DNA of 64,000 nt from Candidatus Gastranaerophilales bacterium (lineage in GTDB: Bacteria; Cyanobacteriota; Vampirovibrionia; Gastranaerophilales; Gastranaerophilaceae): the NCBI GenBank assembly GCA_944325145.1, contig CALYDL010000010.1, forward strand, positions 1 to 64,000, in the 5' to 3' direction. The notes below the pieces were generated by a model. That model did not search any database. It saw only the letters and a list, made by a program, of their open reading frames with translations, and was not told the DNA's origin. Below are positions 34,620 to 39,246 of the stretch, piece after piece (within the stretch, counting starts at the first letter, position 1; each line of letters begins with the position of its first letter). Made by a program: the position numbers and the translations under genes.

Positions 34620-34928
34620 ATGCTAGTTGAAAAAAGATATAGAGAGAATGAAAACTACGCTTGCCAAGAATTCAAGGGGGTTTTAAAAGAAACAATACCT
34701 TGGCTTGAATATTTGGCAGATGAATATCATTGCGCAGTAGTTAAAAAAGAATGGAGAAGCAAATATAATAATTATGTTGTATATGATTATGAGCCTTTTT
34801 GTTCTGAAGGTTTTGAAATTAATATGACATTAAGCTCTTCTTCGCCTGAGTTCTTAAATTTTGTTAAATATTTGTATGACAAAAAAATGTCTGTCATAAA
34901 TTATTTAAATAATTGCATTGATATTTAA
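34620..34928 (+). CDS. Small soluble protein, unknown
   Basis: I recognise no family. The ATG at 34620 is preferred because AAGGAG lies 5 nt upstream. The 102-residue product is acidic, rich in aromatic residues (YRENENYACQEF, EYLADEYHCAVV, YVVYDYEPF) and has three cysteines. No signal or membrane segment is present. It stands alone between a dyad and a strong terminator. Confidence 0.7.
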   Translation: MLVEKRYRENENYACQEFKGVLKETIPWLEYLADEYHCAVVKKEWRSKYNNYVVYDYEPFCSEGFEINMTLSSSSPEFLNFVKYLYDKKMSVINYLNNCIDI

Positions 34929-34953: not shown

Positions 34954-35202
34954 AATAATAAAAATTGCACCAAAATGTATTATTTAGGTGCATTTTTGTT
35001 CTTTTTATTATCATAACATTGTTTTAGAGTTTATTCAACGGGTGTTATTTTACCCTGTTTTTAATTTTTTATTTTCCTTTATTCGCTTATTATCTTTCTT
35101 TTCACCCCTTGCAACAAATTAATACAAAAAGGTGCAATGAATGAAAAGATTGTACTTTTAAAATCAATTTTAATTGAAAGGTATTTTTTATTTTTTTCTT
35201 TT

Positions 35203-35255
35203 GTTCATTTTTCTTTTCTTTTTTCATACGCCTATCAAAGAAAAGAAAAACGAAC
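35203..35255. repeat. 19-bp inverted repeat hairpin
   Basis: The left arm GTTCATTTTTCTTTTCTTT (35203-35221) pairs with 35237-35255 with a single G-T type mismatch. The 15-nt loop contains CATACGCCTATC. Confidence 0.75.
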
Positions 35256-35300
35256 CAAAAAGAAAAGAAAACAAGGCTTAATGAATAAGTTTAGTCTTTT

Positions 35301-35450
35301 CTTTTAAAATCATCTGTCCCCTCAGTTGTTCAGAGTCGGGGCTGCGTTATTAATTAAGAAGATTAATTTTAAAAGTGATATGTTAAACCTAAAAAAGGTC
35401 ACTCCCGCCCCGACGCCTCACCTTTCGGTAAAGACAGATGATTTTAAAAG
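35301..35450. repeat. 150-bp nested inverted repeat (structured RNA or MITE candidate)
   Basis: The perfect 18-bp ends CTTTTAAAATCATCTGTC (35301-35318) and their complement (35433-35450) enclose a second perfect 8-bp pair, GTCGGGGC (35335-35342) and GCCCCGAC (35407-35414). The inner part is more GC-rich than the surroundings at those arms. It could be a small mobile repeat with terminal inverted repeats or a folded RNA. Confidence 0.7.
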
Positions 35451-35528
35451 TATCATTGGCGGAAAAAAGTTAAAAGTTAAAAACAAAAAAAACAAAGCAA
35501 AAACAATAAATTAATGAAAGGATTAAAA

Positions 35529-36293
35529 ATGAAAAGATTAAGAGGTTTTACGCTGGCAGAAGTTTTAATAACTTTAGCTATTATTGGTGTTGTTGCTGCA
35601 ATTTCAATTCCAAGTGTTATTTCAAATAGCCAACAACAAGAATTTAAAACAGGGCTTAGAAAAGCTGTTAGCGTCCTTAATTCAGCAATAACAATGAATA
35701 TGGCAATAGATGGCGAAAGCCCTTATGATAATGCAGATATTTATAATTATTTGCAAAGACATATGAGTATTTTAAGTTCAACAAAATTTCTACCATGGCG
35801 CAATAATATAAATGGTAAAAATAGTGGCAACTTGAACTCGGCTTTTTATACAACAGATGGTATGCGTTTTGAATTTATTTGGAGAACAAATGATGGCAGG
35901 GAAACAGGCGTCAGGCTTCATGAATCAGATACTTTGGCTTGTATAGCAAAATATGATACATACACTTTGGTCAATGACCCAAATCAAGGAACATCTATTG
36001 CTTGTGGCGGTTGTGGCAGTTATGGTTTAAAGAATAATCCCAATGGCACAACAAAGCCCCCTTGCGCTGTTTTAGTTGATGTAAATGGCGACAGAAAGCC
36101 CACTCCAAACCGTGTGTTTTCAAATTATTCTGAAGCTTGGGAAGAGTCAATGAAAGGAAACAGCGTAAAATATTGGATTCCTGACATAAAAACCAAAAGA
36201 ATATATGATATTTTTACAATTTTAATAACTGAAAGCGGAGCCATTCCCTACGGTATAGTTGCCCAAAAAGCAATGTACGATGCGCAGAAGTAA
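35529..36293 (+). CDS. Type IV prepilin/pseudopilin-like protein
   Basis: This is a secreted pilin-like subunit. I start at 35529 because AAAGGA sits just upstream. The 254-residue protein has the class III prepilin signal MKRLRG|FTLAEVLITLAIIG, cleaved after Gly6, with Glu at +5 of the mature form, and one long N-terminal helix. The globular part has two cysteines in a CGGCG loop near the middle and one in PPCAVLVD. A DVNGDRKPTPN stretch resembles the calcium loop of pseudopilins. It is one gene alone; no pilus machinery is in the window, as is common for this lineage. Confidence 0.87.
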   Translation: MKRLRGFTLAEVLITLAIIGVVAAISIPSVISNSQQQEFKTGLRKAVSVLNSAITMNMAIDGESPYDNADIYNYLQRHMSILSSTKFLPWRNNINGKNSGNLNSAFYTTDGMRFEFIWRTNDGRETGVRLHESDTLACIAKYDTYTLVNDPNQGTSIACGGCGSYGLKNNPNGTTKPPCAVLVDVNGDRKPTPNRVFSNYSEAWEESMKGNSVKYWIPDIKTKRIYDIFTILITESGAIPYGIVAQKAMYDAQK

Positions 36294-36336: not shown

Positions 36337-37242
36337 TTAATTTATCTGTATATTGTATTGAACCTCAGATTTTTCTTGGAGCTTTTTAAAAAGATTAAAA
36401 TTATTCACATGTGATGTGCAAAGCGATGTTCTTAAGGGTCTGCCTGTAACTATAACGTCAAAGAGCTTATTACTGTTCTGTTTGTACTTAACAAATAAGG
36501 CAAGCAGTCTGAGAAAATCGTGCCCGTTAATATAATTTCTTTTATCGGTTTTAATTTGAAGTTTTAGCATATTTAAACAATTTTCAAATTCATTAATTTG
36601 GCTACATTTTGCATTTTTATTTAAATAAGATTTAATGAATCTGACACAGTCAAATGCGGGGGACTCATTTTTAAATTTTATAAATTTGTCTATATCAAGC
36701 CATTTCATCTTCCAATTTAGAAATTTATTTGCTGCCCTTATTAGAAATAATTCATTCAGTATTGTTTCAAAATCGGCAAGAAGTGAAGAAATTTTTTTTT
36801 CAACTTTTAATGAACAAAATAATTTAAAAAATTTCTTTAAAATTTTTTCTTCAAAATAATACATTTCCATGCAGGAAAAATCTGTTTTTATAATTGTATC
36901 AGCCTGATTGTTTATATTAAATAGAACATCTGTATCGGCATCAATAATGCAAGATAGGTTATTTTTGCATTTATATTTATTCTGTGCATATTTTGCGATT
37001 GCAATTACACGGCCTCTACTGCCGTCATCAGCATTTCCGCTATATATACTGACTATTTCTGAAGGCACATTAATTTCATCTGCAAGAAAAATTTTTGCGC
37101 CAATAAAACCGCATTCTTGACACAAATACCAATCCAGCACATCACGGTCATTAGGTCCTTCTACAACTATGTCATGGATAGAAGGCTCAAGCTCTAATGT
37201 CATCAAAAATTCGTCAAGATTTTTTCTATCATATGGTATCAT
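36337..37242 (-). CDS. DUF4435/TOPRIM-like nuclease, AriB-like
   Basis: This is the likely effector of a PARIS-type anti-phage pair. The 301-residue protein shows a TOPRIM-like layout: VVEGPNDRDVLDWYL with Glu28 and Asp32, CIIDADTDVLF with Asp101, Asp103 and Asp105, then TDFSCMEMYYF with Glu126, which is the DUF4435 pattern. The C-terminal half is helical and Lys-rich. Its ATG overlaps the ATPase stop by one base (TAATG), so the two are co-translated. In known PARIS systems AriB is released on infection and cuts host tRNA; that activity is not shown here. Confidence 0.78.
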   Translation of the reverse strand: MIPYDRKNLDEFLMTLELEPSIHDIVVEGPNDRDVLDWYLCQECGFIGAKIFLADEINVPSEIVSIYSGNADDGSRGRVIAIAKYAQNKYKCKNNLSCIIDADTDVLFNINNQADTIIKTDFSCMEMYYFEEKILKKFFKLFCSLKVEKKISSLLADFETILNELFLIRAANKFLNWKMKWLDIDKFIKFKNESPAFDCVRFIKSYLNKNAKCSQINEFENCLNMLKLQIKTDKRNYINGHDFLRLLALFVKYKQNSNKLFDVIVTGRPLRTSLCTSHVNNFNLFKKLQEKSEVQYNIQIN

Positions 37243-38546
37243 TATTTAATGCCACCAATTTTAGAATCAAGCTTATTGACACACTCTCTATATTCTGTTA
37301 AAAGTTCTATAGAATGTGTTGCAATTATGAAAGAAGAATTGCTTCCTTCTGTGCAATCAAGCAAAGTTTTTAGCAGGTTTCTTTTCCATTTAATATTTAA
37401 TGATAATTCGGGTTCGTCTATTATTAATAAGTTTGATTTATCTCTTGAAGCAATAGCATCACATAACAAAAGCAGCAGCTGTTTTTCGCCTGAAGATAAC
37501 TGCTTAATGTTCAATTTTTCATTATTTTTATTTTTGATTTCTATTCCTTCGGATATATTAAACGAAGCGGTTTTATCTGTAAAAAACCTTGTGTTTAAAT
37601 TTGTTATAAATTTATCTATGACATTTTCAAGTTTACTTAAGGCTTTAAATTTTGCTTTCATACTATCGATGTAAGGGTCTATTATTTGTTTTGCAAGGCG
37701 TAGATTGTCTGTTGCTGCATCCAATGCGGCAGATAAATCAGCTACTTCTACTTCGGGCATAAGGCCGTATTTTGCATATTTTTTACTTTCGTCATTTAAT
37801 TTTTCTAGATTTGATTTTATTGTCTCTATATTAACAGATGCCTCATTTGTGGTTTTAACAGCAAGGCTTTTTAAAATATTGGTATAAACCTTGTTCATAG
37901 ACTGTGAACCCTTATCGGATGCAGCTAGATTTTGTTTTCCAAACCAATCAACAGCAGCTTTGATTGCTTTTTTCAGTTTTTCATTTAACGAATCGCCTTC
38001 ATTATCATCAATATAGTATTGTGGAGAAAACCTTCCTGAATTAATATAATTATCATTATTTACCACAGAATTCAATTTTCTGTCATCTGAAAGAAAATCA
38101 GCAGAAATACCGTTTAATTTAAGCAAATTTAAAAATTTTAAATACGAAGTGCCATCCTGCGCCTTTACAGGTGCAGAAAAACTGCCGTTATCATTCAATT
38201 CTGCAAGAAAATTGTGTTCTAAAATTTTTTTACCTGATTTAAAAAATTCTGCTTTATAAGTTCCGATAAGTTCATTCTTTTCTCTTGAAAGGGCAATTTT
38301 TACATCATTTGTAAATTCAATTTCAAAAAAAGAAAACTTTTTGTTGCATATGCAAGATTTATGCCCCTTGTTTACCTTTGTTGAGAGAAGGTAGTATACA
38401 ATTTCAAGAATAGTTGTTTTGCCACACCCGTTATCTCCATACAAAATTATTAAATTTGGATTGATATCATTGCTTAAAATCGTATAATTGTATGTACCAA
38501 ATAGATTTTCAACCTTTATTCTTTTTATATAGCTTGTTTTTGGCAT
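37242..38546 (-). CDS. ABC/SMC-like ATPase, AriA-like
   Basis: This is the sensor ATPase of the same pair. I start at 38546 (MPKTSYIKRI) because AAAGGA lies upstream. The 434-residue protein has Walker A YGDNGCGKTT with Lys43, a long coiled-coil-like middle (about 200-300), the signature LSSGEKQ, Walker B LLIIDEPELSL and the H-loop IATHSIELL. The layout is that of AAA_15/OLD-like ATPases. Directly coupled to a DUF4435 gene, it fits AriA of PARIS. OLD or Gabija ATPases carry their own TOPRIM domain or a helicase partner, which are absent here. It starts 17 nt after the CoA transferase stop. Confidence 0.8.
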   Translation of the reverse strand: MPKTSYIKRIKVENLFGTYNYTILSNDINPNLIILYGDNGCGKTTILEIVYYLLSTKVNKGHKSCICNKKFSFFEIEFTNDVKIALSREKNELIGTYKAEFFKSGKKILEHNFLAELNDNGSFSAPVKAQDGTSYLKFLNLLKLNGISADFLSDDRKLNSVVNNDNYINSGRFSPQYYIDDNEGDSLNEKLKKAIKAAVDWFGKQNLAASDKGSQSMNKVYTNILKSLAVKTTNEASVNIETIKSNLEKLNDESKKYAKYGLMPEVEVADLSAALDAATDNLRLAKQIIDPYIDSMKAKFKALSKLENVIDKFITNLNTRFFTDKTASFNISEGIEIKNKNNEKLNIKQLSSGEKQLLLLLCDAIASRDKSNLLIIDEPELSLNIKWKRNLLKTLLDCTEGSNSSFIIATHSIELLTEYRECVNKLDSKIGGIK

Positions 38547-38562
38547 TCGGTATCCTTTTTTA

Positions 38563-39246
38563 TTAAACTTCCATAATTTTAAGGTCGGGGCTGATTTTAA
38601 AATCTGCAAAAACAGAAGCTTTTATATCATCAATTGAATACATCGGGTTAATTTCAATTAATGTCATAATTCCGTTTTGAAATTCAAAAACGCACCTTTC
38701 GGTTACAATCATATCAACTTCCTTATGTGCGGTTAAAGGAAGTGTGCATTTTTTAACAATTTTAACCGTGCCTTTAGATAAATGTTCCATTGCAATAATA
38801 ACTTTTTTGGCTCCAACAACTAAATCCATAGAACCGCCAATGCCCGGGACAAATTTATTTGGAATTAACCAGCTTGCAAGGCTGCCTTCTTCATCAACTT
38901 GTAGTGCGCCCAAAACAGTAACGTCAATGTGGCCGCCGCGCATCATCATAAACGCCATTTCAGAATCAAAAAAGCTTGCGCCTTTTTTAATACCAAAAGG
39001 AACGCCGCCTGAATTTATTATTTTTTTATCAACATATTCGCCTTCTGCTTTTTTGCCAAGGCCCAAAACGCCGTTTTCAGAATGAATGATAATGTTAATA
39101 TCGTTTGGAATATAATTTGCAACTTCATTTGGAAGCCCAATGCCCAATGTTACAACATTTCCGTCTTTCAATTCTTTTGCAACACGTTTTGCAATAATTT
39201 CTCTTATTTTTTCTTTTGATAATACAGCGTCAACAACCGGTGCCAT
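38563..39246 (-). CDS. CoA transferase subunit B (AtoA/ScoB-like)
   Basis: This is the catalytic subunit of a 3-oxoacid or acetate-type CoA transferase. The 227-residue protein has GIGLPNEVANYIP and the catalytic Glu57 in IHSENGVLGLG, with the usual GGSMDLVVGAKK in the middle. Its start directly follows subunit A. Substrates are not shown by sequence; acetoacetate, succinate or butyrate are all possible in an anaerobe. Confidence 0.9.
   Translation of the reverse strand: MAPVVDAVLSKEKIREIIAKRVAKELKDGNVVTLGIGLPNEVANYIPNDINIIIHSENGVLGLGKKAEGEYVDKKIINSGGVPFGIKKGASFFDSEMAFMMMRGGHIDVTVLGALQVDEEGSLASWLIPNKFVPGIGGSMDLVVGAKKVIIAMEHLSKGTVKIVKKCTLPLTAHKEVDMIVTERCVFEFQNGIMTLIEINPMYSIDDIKASVFADFKISPDLKIMEV

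Follow-up and report, generated by a model that had tools for sequence, protein, structure and literature searches.

A palindromic repeat, probably an insertion-derived leader module, associated with dispersed prepilin genes in a Gastranaerophilales genome

What occupies the gap in front of a prepilin gene in a Candidatus Gastranaerophilales genome, where the DNA folds back on itself at several scales? The gap belongs to the window analysed here, a stretch of 64,000 nt from contig CALYDL010000010.1 that supplies the coordinates below, and it runs from the end of a 104-aa open reading frame at 34928 to the ATG of the prepilin gene at 35529 on the + strand. An initial annotation had described nested inverted repeats in this gap and offered three explanations, namely a small mobile element (MITE), a structured regulatory RNA, or an RNA whose target would be the prepilin gene that follows. 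Here, G000 denotes the genome of the window, G004 a sister species that also carries the 150-bp element, and G006 a third species of the genus with a single copy; positions on other contigs are given as contig and coordinate (C24:12856). On the + strand the gap contains, in order, a T block, a junction, a hairpin (H), a link, the element itself (E), an A-rich stretch and the ribosome-binding motif AATGAAAGG:

34960-35127, + strand: T block, the upstream block common to prepilin cassettes, with a terminator-like hairpin (TTGCACC...GGTGCA), then the leader start; putative promoter
35128-35183, + strand: class A left junction, with a 14-nt copy of the E end, TACTTTTAAAATCA, at 35153-35166 and the RBS-like ATTGAAAGG
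35184-35275, + strand: H, hairpin module of type H1, with 38-nt arms that are 82% complementary
35276-35300, + strand: link that joins H to E, GGCTTAATGAATAAGTTTAG-TCTTT, with unchanged relative orientation in each copy that was read
35301-35450, + strand: E, the 150-bp element, its 18-bp inverted ends perfect; this copy, of interior type 1, is one of about 27
35335-35342, + strand: left arm of the inner GC pair, GTCGGGGC, of a helix that is not conserved (79.9% of cells paired)
35407-35414, + strand: right arm of the inner GC pair, GCCCCGAC, which is CCCCTCC in most copies
35451-35521, + strand: class A right junction, A-rich leader and ribosome-binding motif AATGAAAGG (35513-35521), with the same sequence in C22:29105 and C2:60373
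35529-36293, + strand: prepilin gene (N_methyl, PF07963), a member of a dispersed family of about 40

The nested repeats are present as described. E is bounded by perfect 18-bp inverted repeats, CTTTTAAAATCATCTGTC (35301-35318) and GACAGATGATTTTAAAAG (35433-35450), separated by 114 nt, and encloses an 8-bp inner pair, GTCGGGGC with GCCCCGAC, that is likewise perfect in the window copy. The 19-bp hairpin reported at 35203-35255 also exists, but 18 of its 19 positions pair, with a single A/C mismatch on the + strand, and its arms reach 38 nt over 35184-35274. Predicted folding energies of E are -46.3 and -54.0 kcal/mol on the two strands, corresponding to z scores of -5.9 and -6.3 against dinucleotide shuffles, and none of 200 shuffles folded as well. 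The gap holds no gene of at least 80 aa between 34928 and the pilin start according to the open-reading-frame check, in agreement with the annotation.

A whole-genome search found about 27 copies of E in G000, 24 of them full length; the assembly is a 1.88-Mb draft of 63 contigs, many of whose ends fall inside the repeat. Searching the genome and its relatives for further copies had been proposed from the outset, with a single copy that neither covaries nor is transcribed counting against the proposals, and the element has proved multicopy, which also disposes of a single-copy regulatory RNA. Wherever a copy is complete, E is accompanied by H and the link in the same relative orientation, forming a repeat of roughly 280 bases. 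H (35184-35275) and E (35301-35450) thus make up one unit, H-link-E, abbreviated H-E. The interiors of E fall into three types (1-3) that have ~45 bp in common at each end, and four copies carry an extra GC-rich insert of ~131 bp. At other loci H is of a second type, H2, which differs from H1 in sequence and is equally self-complementary. Among the 24 copies uncut by contig ends, E lies beside a prepilin gene or pilin fragment in 23, while the remaining one adjoins a pilin-type ribosome-binding site followed by other repeats in place of the gene (a pilin-less cassette); no uncut copy in G000 lies away from pilin cassettes.

Beyond this genome, the distribution of E is narrow. An exact-arm scan, covering one genome for each of 84,980 GTDB species with the window's own genome left out and the spacer restricted to 103-133 nt, matched only Ca. 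Galligastranaerophilus intestinigallinarum. A covariance-model search of 38 genomes detected E only in G000, in G004 and once in G006, all members of the same genus, Galligastranaerophilus. Judged by these covariance and pattern searches, E is restricted to the genus of the window. The G006 copy is a single H-E with no pilin beside it; G000 and G004 both have a pilin at the corresponding locus. BLAST searches of plasmids and phages returned no match to the element, on which ground a plasmid- or phage-borne origin was rejected, and five IMG/VR contigs had only the 18-mer arm in common with it, with no convincing model hit.

The gene downstream belongs to a large and scattered family. In G000 it has about 40 prepilin members, in addition to fragments (45 matches at an E-value of at most 1e-10); most copies look like full open reading frames, and they are dispersed among unrelated housekeeping genes. 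Family size spans 2 to 45 matches between species of this one genus: 45 in G000, 24 in G004, 19 in G008, 18 in G001, 15 in G005, 10 in G006, 9 in G007, 3 in G002 and 2 in G003. The ribosome-binding motif AATGAAAGGATA occurs 46 times in G000 versus 0 times in the control. By position, 44 of the 46 lie at pilins (direct before the gene, inverted after it), and the other two are in the C23 cassette that has no pilin. An inverted pair flanks the pilin genes, AATGAAAGGATA before and TATCCTTTCATT after, just ahead of the terminator, as at C9:4812 with C9:5555 and C8:49846 with C8:50681 of G000; the pair could serve a 5'-3' mRNA pairing that hides the RBS, or it could mark the cassette boundary.

The T block is common to many pilin loci and exists in three sequence types, and its first ~60 nt are also found upstream of pilins in G001, a genome without H-E. 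A sigma-70 scan found promoter-like sites no commoner than in shuffles, and for this reason we infer, rather than observe, that H-E forms part of a leader. In T types 2 and 3 there is a sequence that complements the RBS AATGAAAGG, either CCTTTCATT itself or a close variant of it (for example upstream of C14:9297 and C24:12856).

Loci with H-E fall into two classes, in both of which T leads and always faces the same way with respect to the pilin. Class A comprises 11 loci, including that of the window, with the order T-H-link-E-pilin, and class B comprises 16 loci with the order T-E'-link'-H'-pilin. The junction sequences are class-specific. The left junction type of the window locus, in which TACTTTTAAAATCA (35153-35166) is an inverted match to the right end of E, was seen across all class A loci read, and class B loci lack an E-end core on their pilin side. 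Because each class has its own junctions, A is not convertible to B by a simple reversible flip, and no locus with mixed junctions was found in G000. At three loci (C24:12856, C14:9297 and C47:5565) T is joined directly to the pilin start with no H-E, and at C8:49865 another insert stands in its place; when empty and filled T-pilin junctions were compared by eye, no clear target duplication emerged. Since T is joined to pilins without H-E at these empty loci and also occurs without it in G001, H-E is regarded as a lineage-specific insertion between T and the gene, and we infer no fewer than two separate entries into the pilin leader, one for each orientation.

Predicted folds of these leaders give no support at present to an effect of the hairpins on translation. 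An earlier fold, with class A open and class B closed, had used leaders all trimmed to one length; once every leader began from an equivalent position within T, the class difference in RBS exposure was not significant (p = 0.07) and was set aside. In the empty T-pilin leaders the RBS is predicted to be almost fully paired (open probability 0.00-0.01).

How, then, did one module come to precede so many different pilins? When the classes (A, B or none) are mapped on a tree built from the variable domains of 34 pilins, 15 changes are required, against a shuffled mean of 15.8, and by this measure H-E class is random with respect to the variable domain. Exact matches of 509 and 464 nt connect C2:19790 (class A) with C33:11753 (class B) and C3:113146 (class B) with C8:23000 (no H-E), respectively, the median over all pilin pairs being 26 nt. 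Both pairs diverge in their N-terminal codons, last ~50 nt, leaders and downstream repeats, so that identical variable-core tracts are embedded in divergent flanks, as would be expected of a Neisseria-like system. The window locus and C22:29339 are 100% identical over about 35200-35520, with T 57-72% alike and the start of the pilin about 80%. Identity tracts cover either H-E or the pilin core, each separately, a pattern typical of gene conversion acting separately on leader and core.

Comparison with the sister species G004, whose flanking genes are 90-96% identical to those of G000, shows that orthologous loci can carry opposite classes. At the SecF locus, G004 is 96% identical up to the end of T, beyond which G000 is class B and G004 is class A; the T blocks align as orthologues, and the difference is confined to the part downstream of T. 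The MIETEFYKQ locus is class A in G000 and class B in G004, and at the GroES locus the whole cassette is inverted between the two. In G004, contigs C222 and C50 have reciprocal-looking junctions, T-H-E-T' and pilin'-H-E-pilin, which suggest either a crossover (a large inversion) through H-E between two loci or a short-read mis-assembly; a mis-join is conceivable because a ~280-bp repeat could mislead short-read assembly.

Pairing within E is preserved to different degrees in its two helices. Across 24 distinct E sequences the outer helix is paired in 99.5% of cells, its arms are kept in all 24, and double changes occur at six pairs. These double changes derive from just two variant copies, C3:78453 and that of G006, and could reflect either selection for pairing or arm-to-arm conversion of the DNA. 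The inner GC helix is paired in 79.9% of cells and is not a defining part of E, because two of its eight pairs are broken in 16 of the 24 copies. An Rfam cmscan found no family at gathering score, and weak miRNA-like hits were dismissed as low-complexity matches to H. A small open reading frame that extends out of E into certain class A pilins, among them C11:46150, is confined to class A loci with type 1 E and was judged accidental.

The reading that we favor, at a probability of roughly 0.6, is that the feature is a palindromic leader module that arose from an insertion, has been carried from one dispersed prepilin locus to another by homologous recombination and is probably transcribed as a structured 5' leader. 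After the entry of an inverted-repeat insertion in each of the two orientations, H-E would have spread and been reshuffled by gene conversion that uses T and the conserved ends of the pilins, and the same recombination process would also swap pilin cores. If T carries the promoter, H-E would be transcribed as a hairpin-rich 5' leader; its hairpins would form whichever way H-E faces and would govern how far apart T and the ribosome-binding site lie and how the RNA between them folds. A bolder extension, which we put forward tentatively and consider less likely, is that this gut relative of cyanobacteria has a surface-variation system spanning its genome, in which the ~40 dispersed prepilin genes swap their variable cores while H-E, in two orientations or absent, reshuffles separately, so that the expression state of a locus and the pilin it encodes would be set independently, with the palindromes setting expression or starting recombination. 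The connection to the prepilin gene suggested by the initial annotation is real and general, and the dispersed family of about 40 genes, the two orientations and the gene conversion are context that lies beyond it.

Several other explanations account for part of these data. H-E could be a MITE moved in trans by a transposase that prefers pilin leaders, which would suit the perfect 18-bp inverted ends and ~150-bp size, the interior variants (types 1-3) with both ends in common, the empty sites, the occurrence of both orientations and the lone G006 copy at a locus bearing a pilin in G000 and G004. We consider it unlikely, because the dispersed insertions that such an element would produce are absent: no G000 copy lies away from pilin cassettes, and autonomous MITE behavior finds no support. 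Moreover, H and E travel together in one relative orientation, so that the moving unit does not stop at the 18-bp ends of E, and the repeated unit H-link-E is not itself bounded by inverted repeats. No clear target duplication was recognized by eye between empty and filled sites, no autonomous element with these ends was found in the genomes of the genus (DNA and covariance search), in plasmids or in phages, and the resident REP transposase carries a different repeat. Inversion in place at each pilin gene by a site-specific recombinase, as in a phase-variation switch, has in its favor the two orientations with T fixed (11 A and 16 B), the third copy of the E-end core at the class A left junction (35153-35166), the orthologous loci that are opposite in orientation between species, and four short tyrosine recombinases in G000 (open frames of 184-205 aa). 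It is nevertheless improbable, given that orientation is fully tied to junction sequences, that an E-end core is missing next to the pilin in class B and that no locus in G000 has mixed junctions.

The palindromes might instead promote gene conversion, much as the G-quartet ahead of Neisseria pilE does: DNA cruciforms or hairpins would provoke breaks from which recombination starts. Both strands fold back strongly, hairpins are retained across two H sequence types and E arm variants, and adjacent genes have clear conversion tracts, all of which would fit this analogy; independence of orientation would suit a DNA palindrome. Against it, C8:23000, one of the conversion partners, has neither T nor H-E, and relatives with 9-19 pilins lack H-E altogether, which makes this role improbable. 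Least credible is an independent regulatory RNA encoded by H-E and acting in trans on pilin messages: the covarying outer stem and the multicopy association with pilins are compatible with it, but there is no Rfam family at gathering score, the interiors differ widely between types without keeping the inner helix, and the occurrence of both orientations means that the transcribed strand differs between classes. A trans-acting RNA is accordingly poorly supported and very improbable.

Among known systems, the closest working analogy is pilin gene conversion in Neisseria, where antigenic variation at pilE/pilS operates by this means (PMC3547852, PMC4023411). In both, the pilin genes keep their ends and vary in the core, core tracts that are almost identical have moved from locus to locus, and a special DNA element lies immediately upstream of the pilin gene. 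They differ in that Neisseria has silent partial pilS copies, whereas here the genes mostly look like full open reading frames, with their own upstream blocks among housekeeping genes; in that the Neisseria element is a G-quartet and this one a palindromic repeat; and in that Neisseria has an expressed locus with silent donors, while the present system is known from sequence alone. The closest structural analogies are Correia repeat enclosed elements and other bacterial MITEs, together with BOX repeats. The former are similarly ~150 bp long, with inverted ends and an RNA-foldable core, beside genes they possibly affect (PMC2649163, PMC10969869, PMC2229807); unlike them, H-E is confined to one gene family, E is always joined to H, and neither a recognizable target duplication nor a parent transposon was found. 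BOX repeats of Streptococcus pneumoniae are also modular interspersed repeats with foldable parts (PMC3049150), but H-E is tied to prepilin leaders, takes two orientations at one position and has a fixed number of modules. REP/BIME sequences with a RAYT offer paired palindromes, and a RAYT gene is present in G000; its surrounding repeats are GTAGGTTGGGGTTTCTACCCCAAC, absent from H and E, and an origin from the resident RAYT was rejected. A fimS-type invertible promoter is likewise a short segment upstream of a pilus gene found in both orientations, although here the junctions differ by orientation, with no sign of a segment that flips back and forth at a common inverted repeat. Because insertion at unrelated sites was looked for and not found, H-E is not filed as a MITE, nor is it filed as a REP element or an invertible promoter. 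In the open-access literature searched, papers on Gastranaerophilales and pili refer to pilus genes but describe neither a family nor a repeat of this kind.

Other features of these genomes deserve mention. Directly downstream of the window's pilin, on the - strand, lie an AriB-like gene (36337-37242; PADLOC AriB, 6e-10) and an AriA-like ATPase gene (37242-38609; AAA_21/AAA_15, best PADLOC hit AriA, 2.1e-30), a pair (36337-38609) that is a candidate PARIS defence system. A second family of interspersed repeats, rich in GC, has copies within H and within E, others between RBS motifs that are duplicated and others downstream of pilins (C7:1170, C52, C53, C8:49865 and C3:113146 in G000; L126 and L135 in G004), and on C7 of G000 an insert lies in frame within a pilin N-terminus. 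G000 has a single REP-associated tyrosine transposase (RAYT) at C17:1302-1829 (L117; NF047646, 132.7 bits), and the GTAGGTTGGGGTTTCTACCCCAAC repeats that surround it are also found downstream of several pilins. The tyrosine recombinases of G000 lie at C3:67434, C8:6110, C8:6941 and C13:31520, those on C8 adjacent to each other and that on C13 beside a prepilin-like gene.

For work on these genomes, near-identical modules of ~280 bp break short-read assemblies and may mis-join them. If the proposed exchange is true, it would add a combinatorial pilin-variation system in Vampirovibrionia, a group for which the open-access papers searched describe no antigenic variation. It would also mean that a regulatory leader and a coding core are shuffled separately across tens of loci, next to housekeeping genes. 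The class A and B junctions, the T ends and the identical core tracts are precise markers with which the frequency of such exchange could be measured.
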